Origin: Collinsella sp. An7
GTDB lineage: Bacteria > Actinomycetota > Coriobacteriia > Coriobacteriales > Coriobacteriaceae
Direction of reading: 5' to 3'
NCBI RefSeq assembly: GCF_002159335.1
Contig: NZ_NFHP01000002.1
Coordinates: 310,001-374,000 of the forward strand
DNA: 64,000 bases
This document shows, piece after piece, positions 16,400-64,000 of the stretch (the first letter of the stretch is position 1; each line of letters begins with the position of its first letter). A program made the position numbers and the translations under genes. The notes beneath the pieces were generated by a model. That model saw only the letters and a list, made by a program, of their open reading frames with translations, was not told where the DNA came from and did no database searches.

Positions 16400-18469
16400 A
16401 TGGCACGACAGAACAAAGCGCGTACCCGCGCGGTCCGCGTCGCGGCGGCAGTGCTCATCGTTGCCGCGAGCGTGGGCGCAGGCAGCGTATGCCTCGCACC
16501 CACGGGGCTCTTTGCCGCCGACGAGGCCGGCCAGGCCGTCGCCTCGATAACGGACACCGAGGCCGCCAACGCGAGCGCGACCTCGACGGACGAGACCGGT
16601 GCGGCAACCACGGACGCCACCGAGACCGCCGGCACCGCAGAGACCGCACCAGCAGAGGCGACCGAGCCGGCCAAGGCCGCGGCAACTGATGCCCAGGCCA
16701 GCACACAGGCAGACGTGCACTACATCGTGCGCTTTGACATGCAGGATCCGGCGGGCGGCTTGTCCGACTTCGGCGTCGACGTCACGCTCGGCAAGACGCT
16801 CAACGAGGTCATCGCTGCGGAAGCTGCGGACCTGTTCCCCGTGGGCACAACGGAGATGTTCGGCGACGGCACTTATCACACCCTGCAGGGATGGGAGAGC
16901 TCTATCCCGCTCGACAAGAAGCTCGAAGCGTCAGACTTTACCGAGTCTAACGGCACCTTCAACATCTGGGTCTACGCAAAGTGGAGCGGCGTCTCCTCCA
17001 TCATCTTCGCCTCCAACACCACCGATATCCCCGCAAACGGCAAGGTCGACCTCGCCTGCATCGACGCGTGGCAGGCGTTCTGTGACCGCGTGGGCGGCCA
17101 GTACCCCATCGGCCTCGATCGCGCCGAGCTCAACGCCGCGCAGCAGCAGAGCTTTACCACGTACGCTCCCGACCAGCAGGCCCTTGCCATCCTTGACGTT
17201 GCTTTTGATGAGTATCTGACCGACGGTTCCGACGGCACGATCGACGTGGCCAAACACGACCTCGCAACCTCAGACGGCGTGACCTTTAACCTGACGCTCT
17301 TTGGGCTGGAGGAGGAGCTCGGCCTCAGCGACCTCAACGGGGTGTACGTCATGCGCATCCCCGAGAACGGCGGCGAGCCCGAGTATCTGTCGACCACCGT
17401 GGACAGCAACGGGCGCCTTGTGATCAAGGGCATGACCGCAACCGGCACCTACGTTCTCAGCAGCCTCAAATACGTCGCCGAGCCGTGGGACGAGAACAAC
17501 GAGCTCCTGCCCTACACCATCAACAACGGCGTTATGACCTTCCCGGGACACCCTGAGCTGGGCGAGTGGTACCAGCTCACGGTCAAGACCGAAGACGGCG
17601 TCACGTTCAGCGCGCCCAGCGGCAGCTCGGCGTGGACCATGATGATCGACGCGCACTCGCTCGACCCGTCCGACCCGCTCTATAACAGCGGGCACAACTC
17701 GGGCATCTACTTTGTGCGCGGCGACGGCCAGGGCGCATCCGCCAACCTGTGGGTTGAGTACCCTGCCGAGAAGGCGCTCTCCTACGCCCTCGCCCCCGCG
17801 GCGGGCACCCTCAACCGCAAGGGCGGCCCCAACTCACTCAACATCAACCTCACCGCGCCCGCGACGCTCACCCTCGGCACCTCGACGGAGACCGTGATCT
17901 CCAACGCGCAGGGCGCCACGCTCACCCACACCGTAAGCGGCAAGGTTGACGCCGACGGCTTTGGCGACGACGCTGTATGGAGCATGCTCACCCTGGTGAC
18001 CGACTGGATCGGCGGCGACGCAGCCGAGACCGCGGGCGATGCCATTAACACCGCGGTTGCCGGCGTGAAGGCGATGTACGTCTACGACATCCACCTCGAG
18101 GACTGGGCGGGCAACGAGTTTGCGGTGCCCGAGGGCGACCGTGTGACCGTGACGCTGCCCATCCCCGAGGGCATGAGCGCCGAGAACCTCTTTGTCTTCC
18201 ACGTTGCGGACGACGGCACGGTGACCGATATGCACGCGACCGTGGACGCCGAGGCCGGCACCGTGAGCTTTGAGACCACGCACTTCTCGACCTTTGTGCT
18301 GGCGAACGTCGAGCCTGGCAGCGGGTCTGTGGGAGCCGGCGCGGCGGGCACGCCGACCGGGACGCTCGCCCAGACCGGCGACCTCTCGCTTTTGGCGGGC
18401 GCCGGCGCTGCCACGGTGGCTCTGGCGGGCGGCTGCCTTATTGCCGTGGGCAAGCGCAAGCAGCGGTAA
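16400..18469 (+). CDS. Cell-wall-anchored surface protein with LAQTG sorting signal
   Basis: A 689-residue secreted protein. ATG at 16400 follows AAGAAAGGAA and gives a clean Sec signal peptide (basic MARQNKARTRAVR, hydrophobic core, cleavage near LFAADEA). A Thr/Ala/Glu-rich region (~45-105) precedes an InlB_B/Flg_new-like module (VHYIVRFDMQDPAGG ... LQGWESSIPLDKKL). The C-terminus has LAQTGD, a hydrophobic helix and KRKQR: a sorting signal of the LAxTG type, which in actinobacteria is handled by class E sortases. No sortase gene is in the window. It follows the LytTR/sensor genes and could be one of their targets, but this is only suggested by position. Ligand or host role unknown. Confidence 0.88.
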   Translation: MARQNKARTRAVRVAAAVLIVAASVGAGSVCLAPTGLFAADEAGQAVASITDTEAANASATSTDETGAATTDATETAGTAETAPAEATEPAKAAATDAQASTQADVHYIVRFDMQDPAGGLSDFGVDVTLGKTLNEVIAAEAADLFPVGTTEMFGDGTYHTLQGWESSIPLDKKLEASDFTESNGTFNIWVYAKWSGVSSIIFASNTTDIPANGKVDLACIDAWQAFCDRVGGQYPIGLDRAELNAAQQQSFTTYAPDQQALAILDVAFDEYLTDGSDGTIDVAKHDLATSDGVTFNLTLFGLEEELGLSDLNGVYVMRIPENGGEPEYLSTTVDSNGRLVIKGMTATGTYVLSSLKYVAEPWDENNELLPYTINNGVMTFPGHPELGEWYQLTVKTEDGVTFSAPSGSSAWTMMIDAHSLDPSDPLYNSGHNSGIYFVRGDGQGASANLWVEYPAEKALSYALAPAAGTLNRKGGPNSLNINLTAPATLTLGTSTETVISNAQGATLTHTVSGKVDADGFGDDAVWSMLTLVTDWIGGDAAETAGDAINTAVAGVKAMYVYDIHLEDWAGNEFAVPEGDRVTVTLPIPEGMSAENLFVFHVADDGTVTDMHATVDAEAGTVSFETTHFSTFVLANVEPGSGSVGAGAAGTPTGTLAQTGDLSLLAGAGAATVALAGGCLIAVGKRKQR

Positions 18470-44968: not shown

Positions 44969-46225
44969 CTACGCCTCGTCAAGCGCTTCGGCCTGAGTGA
45001 GATCGGCCACGAAGATCATCTTCTGGTAATAGTCGAGCGTGCCGACCGCATCGTCACGCCGCCTGACGGCAAGACAGATATCCTGTGCAAAGGGGCTTGG
45101 CTCGTCCGCCAAGTCAAAGATCAGATTCATGCCCCAATATGCGCCAAACAGGTCATCGGTCAGGTGCGCTGCGATGTTCTGCCCCACCGAGCCGTTCTCG
45201 TCGGTATACATCAGCGGAATTGAGCAGACCTTCCCCTGCATCGGCGAGCCATCGGCGTTCAGCCGCGCCGCGAAGGGAAGACCATCTTTGAACTCCCCCG
45301 GAACATAGTCGTGCTGTGCGACATGCGCACTGCCAAACTGGCCGTAAAAGTGCTCAAACGGCAGGCGCTCACGCACGTAGAGGAAATTCTGTTCCATTAC
45401 CTCGTCGCGCAAGGCCCACTCGACATCACCCTCCAAGACATTGTAGAAATGCAGGGCGGCGTCGAAGTTCTTGATAACCTGCCGCGCCAGCTCGCACTGT
45501 TTGCCAAACACCTGGTCGATCAGATCGGGCGCCACACTCTTCTCCGATGCCAGCAGCATGTGTGCTGCGAGGTAATCACCCTCCTGCGCAAGGCGCCCGA
45601 TCAGCTCGTACAACCTCGCGGCCACCTCGTCCTCGGGCGGCGTATCGGGCAGCAAAAGCGCCAAGCCCGAAAGCCAGAGCGCCCCCTGATGATCAACGTC
45701 GAGCCCGATCACCCGCAGCTTTTGCTCATCCGGCAGCCCCACATTGTACTCATACAGCTTCTGGTAGAAAACGCGCTGCTCAACCGTGTACGACGCGGTT
45801 CCCGAGAGCTGGTTCATGATGTCGTCCAGCAGGGCATTGTCGCCCGTCTCAAGATAGCGGTTGAGATAGATGCTCGCGCCGAGACCGAGCTCCGCGACGA
45901 TATAGCGCAAATCCCAGTGCCGATTGAGGTAGCGGATGAGCATAAGCTGCACATCGAAGTTTTGCACGATAGCATGCATCTCGCCGGTAAGTATGAGCTG
46001 ATAGCAGCCGAGGTCGCCGAGCGCATCGACCTCGAGCTCACCGTGGGGATCGTAGGAGCGAACGTGCTCGACGAGATAATCGGTCGGATCGGTCACCTGC
46101 GGCCCCACGGCGTCGCAGCCCGCCAACGCACTCGCGCACGCCAGCGCCGCGGCGCTCGCCAGAAAGCCCCGGCGCGTGATCGCCGTTGCGCCGGGGATGT
46201 TTTTGCCGACAGTTTCCCTGTCCAT
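44969..46225 (-). CDS. Tat-type lipoprotein, erythromycin-esterase-like domain
   Basis: A 418-residue exported protein. ATG at 46225 follows GGGAGG by 8 nt. Signal: TRRGFLASAAALACASALAGC, twin-arginine and lipobox Cys. The mature part has LILTGEMHAIVQNFDVQLMLIRYLN and YGQFGSAHVAQHD, which resemble the Glu/His sites of the erythromycin-esterase/ChaN-like superfamily. Substrate unknown; homologues include predicted membrane-anchored hydrolases rather than true resistance genes. The gene stands alone between two sets of type B repeats. It may have arrived as a cassette, as base composition is not much different. Confidence 0.6.
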   Translation of the reverse strand: MDRETVGKNIPGATAITRRGFLASAAALACASALAGCDAVGPQVTDPTDYLVEHVRSYDPHGELEVDALGDLGCYQLILTGEMHAIVQNFDVQLMLIRYLNRHWDLRYIVAELGLGASIYLNRYLETGDNALLDDIMNQLSGTASYTVEQRVFYQKLYEYNVGLPDEQKLRVIGLDVDHQGALWLSGLALLLPDTPPEDEVAARLYELIGRLAQEGDYLAAHMLLASEKSVAPDLIDQVFGKQCELARQVIKNFDAALHFYNVLEGDVEWALRDEVMEQNFLYVRERLPFEHFYGQFGSAHVAQHDYVPGEFKDGLPFAARLNADGSPMQGKVCSIPLMYTDENGSVGQNIAAHLTDDLFGAYWGMNLIFDLADEPSPFAQDICLAVRRRDDAVGTLDYYQKMIFVADLTQAEALDEA

Positions 46226-51059: not shown

Positions 51060-51106
51060 ACGCAGCGGGGCGCGGCGCTCCTCTGAGCACCGCGCCCCGT
51101 TTTGAG
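51060..51106. terminator. Bidirectional terminator between the toxin gene and the Rnf-like operon
   Basis: Stem GGGGCGCGG (51067-51075) with CCGCGCCCC (51090-51098), with AAAAC on one side and GTTTT on the other, so it can act in both directions; it ends both converging units. Confidence 0.8.
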
Positions 51107-51157: not shown

Positions 51158-51325
51158 CTACTCCTGGACCTCAGCGTCCTTCTCGTCAATCTTCTCCGAG
51201 AGTCCGCTTTGGCTCTGCAGCCAGAGCGACCGCCGCACCGCGCGCGAGGCGAGGGCGATGATCGCCAGCGGGAGAAAGACCACCGTGGCCATGATGATGG
51301 GGGGCGCAATGAAGTAGATTCCCAT
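51158..51325 (-). CDS. 55-residue membrane peptide at the end of the Rnf-like operon
   Basis: A short open frame with GGAGG 6 nt before ATG 51325 and stop TAG at 51158-51160. One strong helix (IAPPIIMATVVFLPLAIIAL) followed by a basic ASRAVRRS boundary and an acidic tail (GLSEKIDEKDAEVQE), so the C-terminus should face the cytoplasm. It begins ~70 nt after the RnfA stop and ends before the terminator. It is in the position where rnfB would normally follow, but has no Cys and only a single helix, so it is not RnfB. Good ribosome site and helix topology suggest it is real. Confidence 0.7.
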   Translation of the reverse strand: MGIYFIAPPIIMATVVFLPLAIIALASRAVRRSLWLQSQSGLSEKIDEKDAEVQE

Positions 51326-51394
51326 AGCCAACCTCCTTACCCCAAACCGTTCATCGCAGCGAGCATGCCCGAGTGGGCTGCCCGCAAGCGCAAG

Positions 51395-51991
51395 TTATAC
51401 AAACAATCCGCCGGCGATGCCGGCAACGCCCGTAAACGCGAGTGCCATGAGCGCGGCCGTGATGAGCGAGATGGGCACGCCGCGGAGCACGCCCGGTACC
51501 AGCCGCTCGTCGATACGGTCGTGGATGAAGGCAAACGCCACCACGGCGATAAAGACACCCATGCCCGACCCGATGGCCGAACCGAGCGCCACGTCAAACG
51601 TGGCGACGTCAGCCGAGGCGGCCATAGAGAGCGGCACCGCGAGCACGGCAGCGCTCACCGCAAGGAGCGCGCAGGTGCGCAGCACGGACGCGCGGCGCTC
51701 AGCCGGGCAGCGCAGGGCCGCCACCGCACCGATGATAAAGATGACGGCGCAGCTCACCATGAGGTAGACGACGCTTGCCATGTAGCTCACGCCCCAGGGC
51801 TCGAGCACGTAGGTGTAGACCGGCCACCCGATGATGCCGGCCGCGGCGCAAGCGATCCAGAGCGCCCCGCCCAAGCGGAAGGCATCCTGCGGGCGCTCGG
51901 CCACCAAAAAGACGACAACCATGCCCACCAGCTGGCAGAACACCAGGTTCTGATCGAGTGCCGCGCTAAACAGCGCATTGAAAAACGTCAT
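51395..51991 (-). CDS. RnfA-like membrane subunit without iron-sulfur Cys
   Basis: A 198-residue six-helix protein, homologous to RnfA/RsxA: NLVFCQLVGMVV, WPVYTYVLEPWGVSYMASVVYLMV, VLRGVPISLITAALMALAFTGVAGIAGGL. The first conserved Cys of RnfA (LGLCPF, Cys25) is Val25 here, and the second (TTNCAVLG) is Ala114 in AVSAAVLAV. Other Cys (19, 48, 81, 95, 107) are present but not at those sites. The gene overlaps rnfE by 4 nt (ATGA). In a normal complex RnfA and RnfE bind a [2Fe-2S] cluster between them. Confidence 0.88.
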   Translation of the reverse strand: MTFFNALFSAALDQNLVFCQLVGMVVVFLVAERPQDAFRLGGALWIACAAAGIIGWPVYTYVLEPWGVSYMASVVYLMVSCAVIFIIGAVAALRCPAERRASVLRTCALLAVSAAVLAVPLSMAASADVATFDVALGSAIGSGMGVFIAVVAFAFIHDRIDERLVPGVLRGVPISLITAALMALAFTGVAGIAGGLFV

Positions 51992-52680
51992 GCGCGCTCA
52001 CCTCCCTTGGCGGCGGAATCGCCGGCTGCATCGGCCGTGTTGGCGGCGCGCAGCTCGGCGCTCTTGCGCGCCGCGTCGACGATCGAGTTCACAAAGGTGC
52101 ACACGAGCGCAAGCACCAGAAGCGACCCGGCAGGCGTGCCAAAGATCGCGATGGGCGAGGCGGCGAGCTCGCGGTTTACGAGACCAAAGACTTCGCCCGT
52201 GGCAAACATGCCGTTTATAAAGCCCACGAAGGTGAGCGCCAGGAAGGTGCACACCGCGCCAAAGACGGCCGTCCCCACCGTGGAGCCCGTGGCCGGGCGC
52301 GCGGTGAAGGCGTCGTCATAGATAAAGAAGGCAACAAGGCCGTTAACCGCGGCGAGCGGCAGGTAGATGCCAAGGTTCTGATAGACGAGCGGGTCGATGA
52401 TGCGCACCGCAAACGAGAGCAGCGTCACCACGGTTGCACTCACCATCAGAAGCACCGGGATGCGCGCCCAGATGCCCGTGATCGAGCGAAGCGGGCGTGC
52501 CAGAACGGCCATAACCACGATGGCGATGGCGCTCACCGCGCCGATGGCGATGCCGTTCGCAACCGAGGTGGCCGCCGCAAGACCCGTAAGCGAGCCAGCC
52601 GCCACCAGAAACGACGGCGTGCGCACGAGCTCGCCGATGCGCGCGTTCTGCTCGCGCACCACGTTCTCATTGAGAGCCAT
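51988..52680 (-). CDS. RnfE-like membrane subunit without iron-sulfur Cys
   Basis: A 230-residue six-helix protein like RnfE/RsxE: RTPSFLVAAGSLTGLAAATSVANGIAIG, LVYQNLGIYLPLAAVNGLVA, and a polar Ala-rich tail. The two conserved Cys of RnfE are changed: in the LGLCPxLA block the residue is Leu31, and in VNCIxxG it is Gly114. Together with RnfA, none of the four ligands of the intramembrane cluster remains. ATG overlaps the rnfG stop (TAATG). Confidence 0.88.
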   Translation of the reverse strand: MALNENVVREQNARIGELVRTPSFLVAAGSLTGLAAATSVANGIAIGAVSAIAIVVMAVLARPLRSITGIWARIPVLLMVSATVVTLLSFAVRIIDPLVYQNLGIYLPLAAVNGLVAFFIYDDAFTARPATGSTVGTAVFGAVCTFLALTFVGFINGMFATGEVFGLVNRELAASPIAIFGTPAGSLLVLALVCTFVNSIVDAARKSAELRAANTADAAGDSAAKGGERA

Positions 52681-53300
52681 TAGTTACCTCCCAACTGCGC
52701 GTACGCCTCAAAGGCGATGTTCAGGTCCTCCACCACGGCGGTAGAGGTAAAGGTCGCGCCCGAGATGCCGTCCACCTGAGTGCCCTCCGAGCCGTCGAGC
52801 GACAGCGACCCCTCGGCCGCCGTGCCGCTAAAGGTATCGAAGAAGTCCTCGGTGAGGGCGTTGGAGCCGATGCCGTCGGTCTCGTTCTCCGAGACCACCT
52901 GGATGCCCGCGACGGTGCCGTCGGAGGCGATGCCGATCATGAGCTCCACGTCGCCGCCGTAACCGGCAGACTGCACGTCAAAGACGTAGTCGCCCGCGTC
53001 GGTCTTGTAGGCGGAGTTGAGCCCGTCGATGGACGGGATGTCGAGCTTCTCAAAGCTCCCGGCCTCGGGGAAGAGCAGCGCGCGCTGGGCTCCGCCCTGA
53101 GCCTCGTCGAGCCGCGCGTCGGCGTCGGCGAAGGCGGTCGTGCCCCACTGGCCCTGGTAGTAGGCAAAGCCCATGACGCCACCGCACACGACGGCCGCCA
53201 CGAGCATCGTCACGAACGCATAGAGCGAGCCGTTGCGGTGCCGCGCGATCCAGGAGAGCTTCTTGGCGCCGGACTCGGGGGTCGCGTTAGACGAGGGCAT
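52680..53300 (-). CDS. RnfG-like subunit with covalent FMN motif
   Basis: A 206-residue subunit with one N-terminal helix (~25-50) and an outer FMN-binding domain. ATG 53300 follows GGGAGG. The attachment motif SGATFTS (DGISGATFTS near the C-terminus) is intact, and NETDGIGSNAL resembles the usual ETPGLG block. It should carry FMN on the Thr. Overlaps rnfD by 14 nt. Confidence 0.9.
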   Translation of the reverse strand: MPSSNATPESGAKKLSWIARHRNGSLYAFVTMLVAAVVCGGVMGFAYYQGQWGTTAFADADARLDEAQGGAQRALLFPEAGSFEKLDIPSIDGLNSAYKTDAGDYVFDVQSAGYGGDVELMIGIASDGTVAGIQVVSENETDGIGSNALTEDFFDTFSGTAAEGSLSLDGSEGTQVDGISGATFTSTAVVEDLNIAFEAYAQLGGN

Positions 53301-54219
53301 GCTTAACACCTCCCACCGGCTGCGACCGGGTGTAGCGGTCGATCAGCGGAACAAACAGGTTCATGAAGAGGATGGAGAAGGCCACGCCCTCGGGGGCGGA
53401 GGCAAACAGGCGCACGAGCGCGGTAATGAGGCCGCACCCCACGCCAAAGATGATCTTGCCCTTGGGCGTCATGGGCGTGGTGGTGTAGTCCGTTGCCATA
53501 AAGAACGCACCGAGCGCCAAGCCGCCAGAGAGCACCTGGTAGACCACGTCCTGGCCACCGATGCCCGTCACGATGGCAACCGTGGCAATGAAGGGCACCG
53601 TGGCCCATGCGTCGACCACGCGCACCGCGAGCAGGAAGATGTAGCCGATGAGCAGCGTGAGGATGCAGGTCTCGCCCAGGGCGCCCGCATGGTTGCCCAG
53701 GAACAGGTCGAGGTAGCTCGCCGTAGGCGCACCCGAGGCGGCCTCCGCGAGCGGCGTGGCACCCGAGATGGCGTCGAGCGGGGTGCCCTGCACGGCCGGA
53801 TAGCTCGCAAGCGCCGAGGGGAAGGCCACCATGATAAAGATGCGGCCCGCCACCGCGGGGTTGGCAAAGTTGCAGCCGATGCCGCCAAAGAGCATCTTGG
53901 CCACGATGATCGCAAACGCCGTGCCGGCCGCCGCCACGTAGAACGGGCAGGTCGCGGGCAGGGTAAAGGCGAGGAGCATGGCCGTCACCACGCACGAGAA
54001 GTCACCGGCGGTGGACTCGCGATGCATGATGATGCAGCAGAGGTGCTCACACACAAGCGCCGTGGCGATGCAGACGAGCACCACGAGCGGAGCGGAAAGG
54101 CCGTAGAGCGCCGTGGCGGCGATGAGCGTTGGAACGAGCGCCAGGCACACGGCGCCCATGATCTTCCAGGTCAGCGCGTTCCCGTGAAAATGCGGGGAGG
54201 CTTCGTTGATGAGGTTCAT
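53287..54219 (-). CDS. RnfD-like membrane subunit with FMN motif
   Basis: A 310-residue multi-helix subunit. SPHFHGNALTWKIMGAV at the start, LDAISGATPLAE (FMN Thr) and GGLALGAFFMATDYTTTPMTPKGK, GLITALVRLFASAPEGVAFSILFMNLFVPLID at the end are all typical RnfD/NqrB blocks. The AGGAGG ribosome site overlaps the end of rnfC. Both flavin motifs (RnfD and RnfG) are intact. Confidence 0.92.
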   Translation of the reverse strand: MNLINEASPHFHGNALTWKIMGAVCLALVPTLIAATALYGLSAPLVVLVCIATALVCEHLCCIIMHRESTAGDFSCVVTAMLLAFTLPATCPFYVAAAGTAFAIIVAKMLFGGIGCNFANPAVAGRIFIMVAFPSALASYPAVQGTPLDAISGATPLAEAASGAPTASYLDLFLGNHAGALGETCILTLLIGYIFLLAVRVVDAWATVPFIATVAIVTGIGGQDVVYQVLSGGLALGAFFMATDYTTTPMTPKGKIIFGVGCGLITALVRLFASAPEGVAFSILFMNLFVPLIDRYTRSQPVGGVKHALV

Positions 54220-54223
54220 AGCT

Positions 54224-55561
54224 TTAAGCCTCCTTTGCGGGTTGCGTGAGCCGCGCGGACTCAGAACGGTAGAAGCCCTTGCCCTCGCGGATCGAGGCGG
54301 TGATGCGCCGGTGCGCCGGGCAGGTGTAGGCGCAGCTACCGCACTCCATGCAGTTCATGACGGCAAACTCGTCGAGCTTGACCACGTCGTGGCTGCGGCT
54401 GGCGGCGTCGAGCTGGAAGGGCATGAGGCCCAGCGGGCACACGCGCACGCAGCGGCCGCAGCGGATGCAGGGCGTCTCGTCGGGCAGGATCGCCTTGTCC
54501 TCGAGGCAGAGGATGGCGTTGTTGGCCTTGAGGATCGGGCAGTCGATGTGCGTGATGGTGCGACCCATCATCGGGCCGCCCATGATGATCTTGCGCGGCT
54601 CCTTAACGAGCCCGCCCGTGGCCTCGATCACATCCTGCACGCTCATGCCGATGGGGATGCGGTAGTTGCCCGGGTTCTTGACGCAGTCGCCGGCGATGGT
54701 GACGGTCTTGCGCACGAGCGGCACGCCGTAGCGGAAGTACTCCTCGATACGCGAGACGGTGGTGACGTTGAGCACGAGGCAGCCCGCGTCGACGGGCAGC
54801 CCGCCCGCCGGCACCGCGCGGCCCGTGGTGGTCTGGATAAGCACCTTCTCGCCGCCCATGGGGTACTTGGTGGGAACCATCAGCACCTCAACGAGGTCGC
54901 CCACGCCCTTGGCCTTGATGGCCTCATTGAGCTTGTCGACGGCCTCGGGCTTGTTGTCCTCCACGCCGATGACGGCCGCGGGGATCTCGAGCGCACGAGC
55001 GATGCGCGCCACGCCGTCGATCACGCGCTCGGCGTGCTCGATCATCTGGCGGTAGTCGCTCGTAATGAACGGCTCGCACTCCATGCCGTTAACGACAACA
55101 AAGTCGAACTTCTTGCCCGGCGGGCACTTCATCTTGAACCACGACGGGAACGACGCACCGCCGAGGCCCACCACGCCGCTCTTGCGGACGCACTCGATGA
55201 ACTCGTCTTTGTTGGAGTACGTGGGCTTTGTGAGCGCCGGATCGTTCTCCATCTTGCCGTCGGACTCGATCTGGACCACCGGGGCGTGCTGTCCGGTGGG
55301 CAGCGTCTCCTCGGCAACCGACGTAACCGTGCCCGAAACCGTGGCGTGCACAGGCGCGCAGAGGCCCTCGCCATCGCCGATGAGCGTACCGATGTAAACG
55401 TGGTCGCCCACGCTCACCACCGGCTTGGCAGGCGCCCCGATGTGCATGTTCAGCGGGATGCGCACCTGCTTGGGAGGCTCGATCGACGTGACGGGGCAGT
55501 CCCGCGTGTCCTTGCACTGCGGCGGATGCACACCGCCTAACGTCTTGTGCAGAGAGAACAT
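54224..55561 (-). CDS. RnfC-like NADH/FMN subunit with two [4Fe-4S] sites
   Basis: A 445-residue soluble subunit. ATG 55561 follows GGGGAAGGGGAG. LHKTLGGVHPPQCKDT and HIGAPAKPVVSVGDHV begin the lipoyl-like part; VGLGGASFPSWFKM and VVVNGMECEPFITSDYRQM form the FMN/NADH site; CIRCGRCVRVCPLGL and CMECGSCAYTCP bind two clusters. First gene of the rnfC-D-G-E-A unit. In ordinary Rnf it passes electrons between NAD(H) and the membrane subunits via RnfB; RnfB is not encoded here. Confidence 0.92.
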   Translation of the reverse strand: MFSLHKTLGGVHPPQCKDTRDCPVTSIEPPKQVRIPLNMHIGAPAKPVVSVGDHVYIGTLIGDGEGLCAPVHATVSGTVTSVAEETLPTGQHAPVVQIESDGKMENDPALTKPTYSNKDEFIECVRKSGVVGLGGASFPSWFKMKCPPGKKFDFVVVNGMECEPFITSDYRQMIEHAERVIDGVARIARALEIPAAVIGVEDNKPEAVDKLNEAIKAKGVGDLVEVLMVPTKYPMGGEKVLIQTTTGRAVPAGGLPVDAGCLVLNVTTVSRIEEYFRYGVPLVRKTVTIAGDCVKNPGNYRIPIGMSVQDVIEATGGLVKEPRKIIMGGPMMGRTITHIDCPILKANNAILCLEDKAILPDETPCIRCGRCVRVCPLGLMPFQLDAASRSHDVVKLDEFAVMNCMECGSCAYTCPAHRRITASIREGKGFYRSESARLTQPAKEA

Positions 55562-55641: not shown

Positions 55642-55670
55642 ATTGTAACGACACGAGCACACATTTTGAA
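55642..55670 (-). promoter_or_regulatory. Promoter of the Rnf-like operon
   Basis: On the minus strand TTCAAA (55665-55670), 17-bp spacer, TACAAT (55642-55647), ~80 nt before the rnfC start. The AT-rich patch around it stands out from the GC-rich surroundings. Confidence 0.6.
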
Positions 55671-61843: not shown

Positions 61844-62050
61844 CTACTTCACGCCGCGACCGAGCTTATCGGCAACAGCGTCGACGCCCTTGAGCGCCGG
61901 GCACGACGCCCGCTCAGAAGAGGAGCAATGCCCCGAGCACGTGCCGCCCTGAGCGCAGTCGGCGCAACTGCCCTTACGGCGCACGCGCACGCACACGACA
62001 GCAAACGCCACCGCAACCAGCGCGAGGATGATGAAGTCAACCGGACCCAT
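61844..62050 (-). CDS. FeoB-associated Cys-rich membrane protein
   Basis: A 68-residue peptide. ATG 62050 follows AAGGAGG. One helix (DFIILALVAVAFAVVCVRV) then RRKGSCADCAQGGTCSGHC with five Cys in the tail, the pattern of small FeoB partners. Downstream of feoB; it may deliver or handle Fe2+ on the inner side of FeoB. Confidence 0.88.
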   Translation of the reverse strand: MGPVDFIILALVAVAFAVVCVRVRRKGSCADCAQGGTCSGHCSSSERASCPALKGVDAVADKLGRGVK

Positions 62051-62193: not shown

Positions 62194-64000
62194 TTACGCT
62201 GCGGCGGCAGCGGGCTCGCGATCGTCGGTCCAAGCGTACTTGGGCATGGGCCGGAAGAGCTGGAAGAGGATGAGCGCGGCAAAGACCAGCGCCACTACCG
62301 TCCAGATGCTGAACACACCCGTCGCAGCCAGGTAGAACTGGTTGATCATAAGACCCACGACCCACGCGAAGGCGCACTCGTAGCCGATCGCGATGGCCGT
62401 CCACTTGGCCGAGTTCATCTGGGCGCGAATCGTTCCCATCGCGGCAAAGCACGGCGCGCACAGAAGGTTGAAGGCACCGAAGGCGGCAATCGCGCCGGCT
62501 GTGGGGAACATCCCGGCAAACGCGACCCAGAGGTTCGGGTCGGTCTCGGTACCGTCGGCAATGTGCAGCAGCGACGACGCGGTGGCCACGACGTTCTCCT
62601 TGGCCACAAGGCCCGTGATGGACATGGCCGTCGCCTGCCACGAGCTGAAGCCGAGCGGGGCGAAGATCCACGCGATCGCGCCGCCGAGCATAGCGAGCAC
62701 GGAGTAGTCGGTGAACTCCTCGGGTACGCCGGCCATGCCGGGCAGGAACCCGAAGGCGCCCGAACCGCCGTCCCACGAGGCAACGCCGAAGTTGGTGAGG
62801 AACCAGACCACCACGGTGGAAGCGAAGATGATCGTAAAGGCCTTCTTGATGTACGCGCTCACGCGCTCCCACACATGCAGCGCCCACGAGCGCAGCGACG
62901 GGAAGTGGTAGCTCGGCAGCTCCATCACAAACGGCGTCGGACGCCCGGCGAACAGACGCGTCTTCTTGAGCATGATGCCCGATGCGATGACCGCGATCAC
63001 GCCAAGGAAGTAGAACAGCGGACTGATCCACGCAGCTTCGGCGTCGCCCACCAGCGCGCCCATGAGCAGCGCGATGATGGGAAGCTTCGCCCCGCAGGGG
63101 ATGAAGGTGGTGGTCATGACCGTCATGCGACGGTCCTTCTCGTTCTCGATGGTCTTGGTGGCGAGCACGCCCGGCACGCCGCAGCCCGTGGAGACGAGCA
63201 TGGGGATGAACGACTTGCCCGACAGGCCGAAGCGACGGAACACGCGGTCCATGACGAAGGCCACGCGCGCCATGTAGCCGCAGTCCTCGAGGAAGCTGAG
63301 CAGCACGAAGAGCACGAACATCTGCGGGATGAAGCCGAGCACCGCGCCGACACCGGCAACGATGCCGTCGAGCACAAGGCTCGTCACCAGCTCACTCGCC
63401 CCGATCGAGGCGAGCCAGCCCTCGATAGCCCCGGGGATGGAGGGGAACGAGACCCCGAAGAGCTCGAAGCCCTCGCCGAAGAGGTTGTCGTTCACCCAAT
63501 CGGTACCGGCGGTGCCGATGGCGCCCGAGGAGGTGGCGATGAAGTAGACGGCGAACATGATCGCCAAGAAGATCGGCAGGCCGAGTACGCGGTTGGTCAC
63601 GACGCGGTCGATCTTCTCGGACACGGACATGCGCGCCGGCGCCTTGCGCACGCACTCGTCCATGATGTGCGCGATCACGGCGTAGCGCTCGCCGGCGATG
63701 ATGGATTCGGCGTCGTCGTCGCAGTCTCGCTCGCAATCGGCGATGAGTTGCTCCACGCTCGCGGCAGCGTCGCGCGTAAGGTTGACGGACGCCTGCGCGT
63801 CTGCGTCACGCTCAAAGAGCTTGACGGCCCAGTAGCGACGCTTCTCGGCCGGCACGGACCCGGGCAGGAGCGCCTCAATCTTCTGCAGCACGTCTTCGAT
63901 GGCCGAGTCGAAGCAATGGTCCGCCGCCTTCCCCTTGCTGCCGGCGACGCGGCGCACCTCGGCGAAAAGCCGGTCGATACCGGTGTTCTTGAGGGCGGAG
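62194..64000 (-). CDS. feoB: Ferrous iron transporter B, partial (C-terminal ~600 residues)
   Basis: The frame is open to the right edge of the window; the GTPase domain is outside. Visible are the cytosolic link (GIDRLFAEVRR, ERYAVIAHIMDECVR) and the membrane core with both Cys-bearing gate motifs: SFIPMLVSTGCGVPGVLATKTIE and TTFIPCGAKLPIIALLMGAL, plus FLEDCGYMARVAFVMDR. These are the hallmarks of FeoB. It takes up Fe2+ under anaerobic conditions. The Cys-rich small protein follows downstream on the same strand. A tail with Ala/Ala ends the protein. Confidence 0.97.
   Translation of the reverse strand, partial: SALKNTGIDRLFAEVRRVAGSKGKAADHCFDSAIEDVLQKIEALLPGSVPAEKRRYWAVKLFERDADAQASVNLTRDAAASVEQLIADCERDCDDDAESIIAGERYAVIAHIMDECVRKAPARMSVSEKIDRVVTNRVLGLPIFLAIMFAVYFIATSSGAIGTAGTDWVNDNLFGEGFELFGVSFPSIPGAIEGWLASIGASELVTSLVLDGIVAGVGAVLGFIPQMFVLFVLLSFLEDCGYMARVAFVMDRVFRRFGLSGKSFIPMLVSTGCGVPGVLATKTIENEKDRRMTVMTTTFIPCGAKLPIIALLMGALVGDAEAAWISPLFYFLGVIAVIASGIMLKKTRLFAGRPTPFVMELPSYHFPSLRSWALHVWERVSAYIKKAFTIIFASTVVVWFLTNFGVASWDGGSGAFGFLPGMAGVPEEFTDYSVLAMLGGAIAWIFAPLGFSSWQATAMSITGLVAKENVVATASSLLHIADGTETDPNLWVAFAGMFPTAGAIAAFGAFNLLCAPCFAAMGTIRAQMNSAKWTAIAIGYECAFAWVVGLMINQFYLAATGVFSIWTVVALVFAALILFQLFRPMPKYAWTDDREPAAAAA

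Follow-up and report, generated by a model that had tools for sequence, protein, structure and literature searches.

The DNA analysed here, a 64,000-nucleotide window from Collinsella sp. An7 (contig NZ_NFHP01000002.1, positions 310,001 to 374,000), encodes an Rnf-like membrane complex that lacks both the RnfB subunit and the four cysteines of the RnfA/RnfE iron-sulfur cluster, and that keeps the cofactor motifs of RnfC, RnfD and RnfG. Removal of the normal RnfA/RnfE relay, inferred in the initial annotation of the window, is well supported: the cysteines are missing from 30/30 genomes of the family that carry the complex, and no RnfB was found in the source genome. On balance we regard the remaining machine as a ‘half-Rnf’, a single flavin path from reduced nicotinamide adenine dinucleotide (NADH) through RnfC and RnfD to RnfG that probably exports electrons, with RnfA, RnfE and a short membrane peptide (‘mini-RnfB’) as scaffold.

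The source genome (2.37 Mb, 99.7% complete) belongs to the Coriobacteriaceae. Among named organisms it is closest to Collinsella sp. An268/An307 and Candidatus Coprousia avicola, whose RnfA proteins are 79-80% identical to its own. The operon runs on the minus strand from 55561 to 51158 in the order rnfC-rnfD-rnfG-rnfE-rnfA and closes with a single-helix peptide of 55 residues; the genes are tightly packed. Our reading reproduces the gene order, the terminal membrane peptide and the terminator described previously, the last being a GC-rich stem with TTTT at 51066-51099. No riboswitch was found upstream of the operon at Rfam gathering thresholds. The features are as follows, FMN denoting flavin mononucleotide.

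54224-55561, minus strand: rnfC, NADH/FMN subunit, 445 residues counted from the ATG at 55561
53287-54219, minus strand: rnfD, membrane flavin subunit, 310 residues
52680-53300/53309, minus strand: rnfG, outer-face subunit with covalent FMN, motif DGISGATFT
51988-52680, minus strand: rnfE, cluster cysteine positions occupied by L31 and G114
51395-51991, minus strand: rnfA, cluster cysteine positions occupied by V25 and A114
51158-51325, minus strand: 55-residue peptide (putative ‘mini-RnfB’), single helix in the rnfB position, with its own Shine-Dalgarno site
51066-51099, minus strand: terminator-like hairpin at the operon end, 15 pairs (13 G-C) followed by CTGCGTTTTG; a pattern match only
55642-55670, minus strand: weak promoter-like site 5' of rnfC, TTCAAA-17-TACAAT; shuffled sequences yield about as many

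In the normal Rnf complex, electrons cross the membrane twice: outward from ferredoxin through RnfB and RnfA/RnfE to RnfG, and inward from RnfG through RnfD and RnfC to NAD+ (PMC12174285, PMC9588780). The cysteine positions of the first crossing were mapped by alignment to solved RnfA, RnfE and NqrE chains, including the cluster cysteines of Acetobacterium woodii RnfA. This alignment agrees with the initial annotation, which had placed V25 and A114 of RnfA and L31 and G114 of RnfE at the four positions by eye. Both subunits score below their family cut-offs (RnfA, TIGR01943, 81.8 bits against 229.3; RnfE, TIGR01948, 45.4 bits against 213.4). Their fold is retained: a single-chain AlphaFold model of RnfA matches RnfA/NqrE with template-modelling scores of 0.76-0.82, and that of RnfE matches RnfE/NqrD.

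The loss is clade-wide, a check that the initial annotation had proposed. Exactly one PF02508 pair occurs in each carrier (30/67 Coriobacteriaceae genomes), all four cysteines are missing in 30/30, and the source genome holds no second pair. Across these carriers the vacated positions are filled by V/A/L and A/S in RnfA and by L and G/A in RnfE. Because the identical pattern recurs in all 30 related genomes with the complex, chance or an assembly quirk is ruled out. The cluster cysteines are kept in the other Coriobacteriia loci read and in 20 RnfA proteins drawn from further families of the phylum, and the best PF02508 matches mostly reach 190-230 bits in other Coriobacteriia versus up to 77 in the Cys-less clade. 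A new cluster on RnfA cysteines 19, 48, 81, 95 and 107 had been considered; these residues are not conserved, and one relative (L034) has no cysteine in RnfA at all. Two others (L029, L042) have none in RnfE. As no set of cysteines is conserved among the relatives, we reject an alternative cysteine-ligated cluster in either subunit. The Cys-less RnfA has invariant residues of its own (e.g. N15, Q20, D13 and R100), and no conserved cofactor-binding motif is evident in Cys-less RnfA/RnfE.

The lack of rnfB, first noted for the window, extends to the whole genome in searches with PF04060 and TIGR01944: PF04060 gave no match over the cut-off, and no transmembrane-anchored RnfB-like protein was recovered with either profile. 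TIGR01944 exceeds its cut-off in 0/67 family genomes, the best partial matches spanning ferredoxin repeats only; that of the source genome belongs to an Ech-type hydrogenase, as its ferredoxin subunit. In 20/20 canonical Coriobacteriia loci read, rnfA is immediately followed by the RnfB Fe-S motif, which was found nowhere in 28 Cys-less loci. The possibility raised earlier, a complete rnfB beside another full rnf cluster with this copy decayed, finds no counterpart in the genome, where neither turned up; a second Rnf or an unlinked RnfB is therefore rejected. Replacement of RnfB by NqrF is rejected as well, since the genome has no NqrF-type subunit. Its sole PF00175 protein resembles PyrK and is encoded beside a dihydroorotase gene.

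Directly after rnfA, where rnfB sits in all 20 canonical loci, every Cys-less locus examined has an open reading frame of 43-68 residues with one hydrophobic helix and a charged tail, often rich in Ala/Glu. The distance from rnfA is usually 9-14 nucleotides in the relatives and 69 nucleotides in the window; in one locus (L131) the start is uncertain. The initial annotation had recorded the 55-residue peptide correctly but overlooked that it occupies the rnfB slot. In the Clostridium tetanomorphum complex, the N-terminal helix of RnfB is a membrane anchor close to RnfA/RnfE (PMC9588780). A profile of the peptides matches a profile of the RnfB N-terminal helix with a score of 23.7, which none of 60 column shuffles attained (maximum 13.8). 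Lower scores were also obtained with 19 further helix segments of Rnf subunits, of which the RnfG anchor came closest at 19.2. One row of the RnfB set (L109) represents a wrong segment, which should weaken rather than inflate the match. A simpler test, in which the peptide and the RnfB N-terminus were aligned at their starts and scored by BLOSUM, gave no significance (345/2000 permutations reach the score). We consider it likely that the peptide is RnfB reduced to its N-terminal membrane anchor.

The second arm is intact, both here and in the Cys-less relatives, in keeping with the earlier observation that the RnfC clusters and the RnfD and RnfG flavin Thr motifs are retained. RnfC scores 456.8 bits against TIGR01945 (cut-off 245.95) and 377 bits to the solved C. 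tetanomorphum RnfC. Both of its CxxCxxCxxxC ([4Fe-4S]) motifs are preserved, as they are in every Cys-less relative with rnfC recovered in full. RnfD exceeds the TIGR01946 cut-off (266.3 bits), is not fused to a C-terminal NAD-binding domain, and has an intact flavinylation motif, DAISGAT, whose Thr is present in 29/29 Cys-less loci. RnfG is over the cut-off for PF04205 (3.6e-17), and scores 62.9 bits against TIGR01947 (cut-off 102); the genome encodes no further FMN_bind protein. The RnfG flavinylation motif DGISGATFT is present in 29/29 loci.

Evolutionary constraint mirrors this division. The Cys-less clade keeps 76/87 of the canonically conserved columns in RnfC, 58/67 in RnfD and 12/17 in RnfG versus 9/55 in RnfE and 12/53 in RnfA. 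Mean identity within the clade is 78% for D, 75% for C, 56% for A and 55% for E, which inverts the subunit ranking of canonical Rnf (f2/f3; A 80%, E 67%, D 64%, C 63%). All five genes, rnfA and rnfE included, have pairwise ratios of nonsynonymous to synonymous substitution rates (dN/dS) of mostly 0.02-0.28 over ten pairs, the mark of purifying selection in every subunit. In the pair L015/L017 (Collinsella intestinalis versus Collinsella cluster2_bin.24), dS is 0.7-0.9 for rnfE/rnfA and ~0.17-0.23 for rnfC/D/G, which suggests recombination exchanging the E-A end of the operon.

In the RnfC tree the Cys-less clade is monophyletic (100/99) and sister (99/94) to L110, a complex with RnfB and cluster cysteines from another family of the same order, which sits on a long branch. 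This placement implies that a complete Rnf probably lost the RnfB soluble domains and the ligands once, in a single event that we would probably place near the base of the Coriobacteriaceae. The operon is cleanly missing in 37/67 family genomes. In six operon-free genomes examined, ligA lies ~0.3-0.8 kb after htrA in five and ~4 kb after it in the sixth.

With the RnfB Fe-S domains and the RnfA/RnfE cluster cysteines missing, the complex would have neither ferredoxin input nor the RnfA/RnfE relay. Cofactors are left only for the second crossing, so the simplest machine would link NAD(P)H to the RnfG flavin on the outside by a single route, close to the NADH-to-outer-flavin activity suggested by the initial annotation. 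We propose that the Coriobacteriaceae descend from an ancestor that dismantled the first arm, the cluster cysteines changing to V/A/L/G and RnfB being lost save, probably, for the N-terminal helix now seen as the 55-residue peptide. Electrons would pass from NAD(P)H to RnfC (FMN, two [4Fe-4S] clusters), to the flavins of RnfD and to the RnfG FMN on the outer face. RnfG may then hand them to a small external acceptor, for instance a soluble flavin or ferric iron, and RnfA/RnfE with mini-RnfB may serve to keep the membrane core assembled with the docking site for RnfG. The membrane potential would be expected to favour outward electron flow.

The rest of the genome narrows the choice of acceptor. 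It encodes no UbiA-family prenyltransferase, which makes a prenylquinone of its own an unlikely acceptor (scavenged quinones aside), and a reductase with an FMN_bind domain is rejected as a partner since there is no FMN_bind protein besides RnfG. These absences make a soluble flavin or ferric iron the more probable acceptor. ApbE, the FMN-attaching enzyme, is found in 30/30 rnf carriers versus 7/37 non-carriers. An Ech-type hydrogenase accompanies the operon in 26/30 carriers (PF00346 in 58/67 family genomes); as another outlet for ferredoxin, it may explain why the ferredoxin arm was dispensable. In the source genome, this energy-converting [NiFe] hydrogenase is represented by a large subunit of 377 residues followed by a ferredoxin subunit of 230 residues (G000:C16:86450-87512, L171).

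Several points weigh against this half-Rnf. The homology of mini-RnfB to RnfB is drawn from its place in the operon, its topology and a profile match that is weak and spans 29 columns. With RnfG as the sole FMN_bind protein of the genome, there is no sign of a flavinylated reductase that could act as a partner. Purifying selection on RnfA/RnfE could reflect more than scaffolding, and the direction of electron flow, export or import, cannot be read from sequence.

Among the alternatives, a one-armed Rnf that sends electrons from NADH over RnfC-D-G to the cell surface, with ion coupling through RnfD only, in which RnfA/RnfE are re-purposed and RnfB has shrunk to a regulatory or structural 55-residue helix, is conceivable and in our estimation unlikely. 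Electron import over the same flavins, from an external reductant through RnfG and RnfD/RnfC to NAD+, would need no cofactor motif that is not retained, and RnfG to NAD+ is the normal forward direction of this arm in Rnf (PMC9588780). It would, however, oppose the inside-negative membrane potential and require a low-potential external donor, and neither the operon nor its surroundings show a donor dehydrogenase, which makes import rather improbable. Similarly doubtful is a redox-driven ion pump in which RnfD conducts Na+ and this movement is either powered by the electron transfer along RnfC-D-G or powers it. Three RnfD residues of the Na+ path proposed in PMC9588780 (N124, E185 and D248, C. 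tetanomorphum numbering) are kept in 29/29 Cys-less loci, and RnfA/RnfE are under purifying selection with invariant residues of their own; yet RnfD N90 is Thr in 29/29 loci (the position is variable in canonical RnfD too). The associated new role of the Cys-free RnfA/RnfE, for example in holding a different cofactor or as a section of the ion path, is also a tentative proposal, given that no conserved cofactor-binding motif is evident in them.

Normal Rnf function, with another ferredoxin protein acting for RnfB in trans and the cluster held by other ligands, appears very improbable. Generic 8Fe ferredoxin matches exist, the best in the genome being the Ech hydrogenase subunit, but nearly all the canonical conserved columns of RnfA/RnfE are gone, no alternative cysteine set is conserved, some relatives are Cys-free in RnfA or RnfE, and a membrane-anchored RnfB-like protein was not found. 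A decaying, functionless remnant could account for the loss of one subunit and four ligands and for the 37 operon-free genomes, but this is scarcely credible given the low dN/dS of all five genes, the intact frames and overlapping genes, and an order and cofactor sites conserved across four genera.

Other loci touch on flavin and iron chemistry. The source genome has two ApbE genes, one at L134:5590-7567 (G000:C11 ~379.6-381.6 kb) for a lipoprotein (RR...LLGGC) and one at L135:7202-8419. The former directly follows a gene for a small membrane protein that has no family in NCBIfam, which we take to resemble a Gx-type transporter and which may perhaps supply flavin to the outside. The rnf-free family genome G018 contains a cluster (L136, G018:C46:56000-70000) with a multi-FMN_bind protein, a 1283-residue frame with FMN_bind, and ApbE; this is perhaps a separate extracellular electron transfer system. 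Within the window, the iron transporter FeoB, called for its C-terminal part, and a 68-residue Cys-rich membrane peptide lie at 61847-62050 and 62197-63957 on the minus strand, upstream of glnA. The feoB-glnA-regulator-htrA block stands upstream of rnf in 7/9 relatives, with no match in G044 and G021. Since the block has housekeeping genes and these two relatives do not match, its linkage to rnf proves nothing, and we do not take the presence of FeoB 6.5 kb upstream as pointing to ferric reduction. The window also encodes a 418-residue lipoprotein of the twin-arginine translocation type (44969-46225, minus strand) and a 672-residue predicted secreted protein (16451-18469, plus strand), both without a Pfam match.

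The complex shares with the Rnf of A. woodii, C. tetanomorphum and Azotobacter vinelandii the RnfC/D/G cofactor motifs, the RnfA/RnfE fold, the order C-D-G-E-A and a single-helix protein in the rnfB slot. It appears to derive from Rnf and to work like one Rnf arm, and it fails two defining features, the RnfB Fe-S domains and the RnfA/RnfE cluster cysteines. In a proposed scenario (PMC4014512), the Na+-translocating NADH:quinone oxidoreductase (Na+-NQR) likewise descends from an rnf operon without rnfB, an RnfB-like helix having been kept or regained as the NqrF anchor. In contrast, Na+-NQR kept the A/E-type cluster cysteines, gained NqrF and lost the RnfC cofactors; the Cys-less complex shows the opposite in both respects, and the source genome was found to contain no NqrF and no UbiA-family enzyme.

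Two-subunit Nqr/Rnf-like complexes, many of them in Actinobacteria, combine an RnfD-like domain fused to an NAD-binding domain with FMN_bind (PMC8238504, PMC11334425). They too carry electrons one way along a single path, with NAD(P)H as donor and an outer flavin as recipient, but they have no RnfC, RnfA or RnfE and lack the NqrB/RnfD flavinylation Thr, whereas the complex described here has five subunits and the Thr. The SoxR-reducing Rsx of E. coli belongs to the Rnf family and is likewise not devoted to energy conservation of the ferredoxin:NAD+ type, but it has kept RsxB and, in the residues compared, the A/E cysteines. The flavinylation survey of PMC8238504 defined RNF by RnfB, so the Cys-less complex would not count as RNF there. 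In the open literature searched, subscription papers being outside its scope, we found no description of an RnfB-less, Cys-less Rnf.

The ion-pump coupling site of Rnf and NQR is unsettled, with the A/E cluster switch and RnfD as the candidates. Here one arm has been removed naturally and the other is under selection, so that the arms can be studied apart, in a complex that spans dozens of species, among them the cultured type strains of Collinsella stercoris, C. intestinalis and C. tanakaei. The complex is also a separate natural example in which rnfB has gone and its helix has apparently stayed, as proposed for the step that gave rise to NQR (PMC4014512), though the outcome here is a different one. 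The findings further suggest that common gut Actinobacteria have a route for electrons from NADH to the cell surface that has been overlooked.

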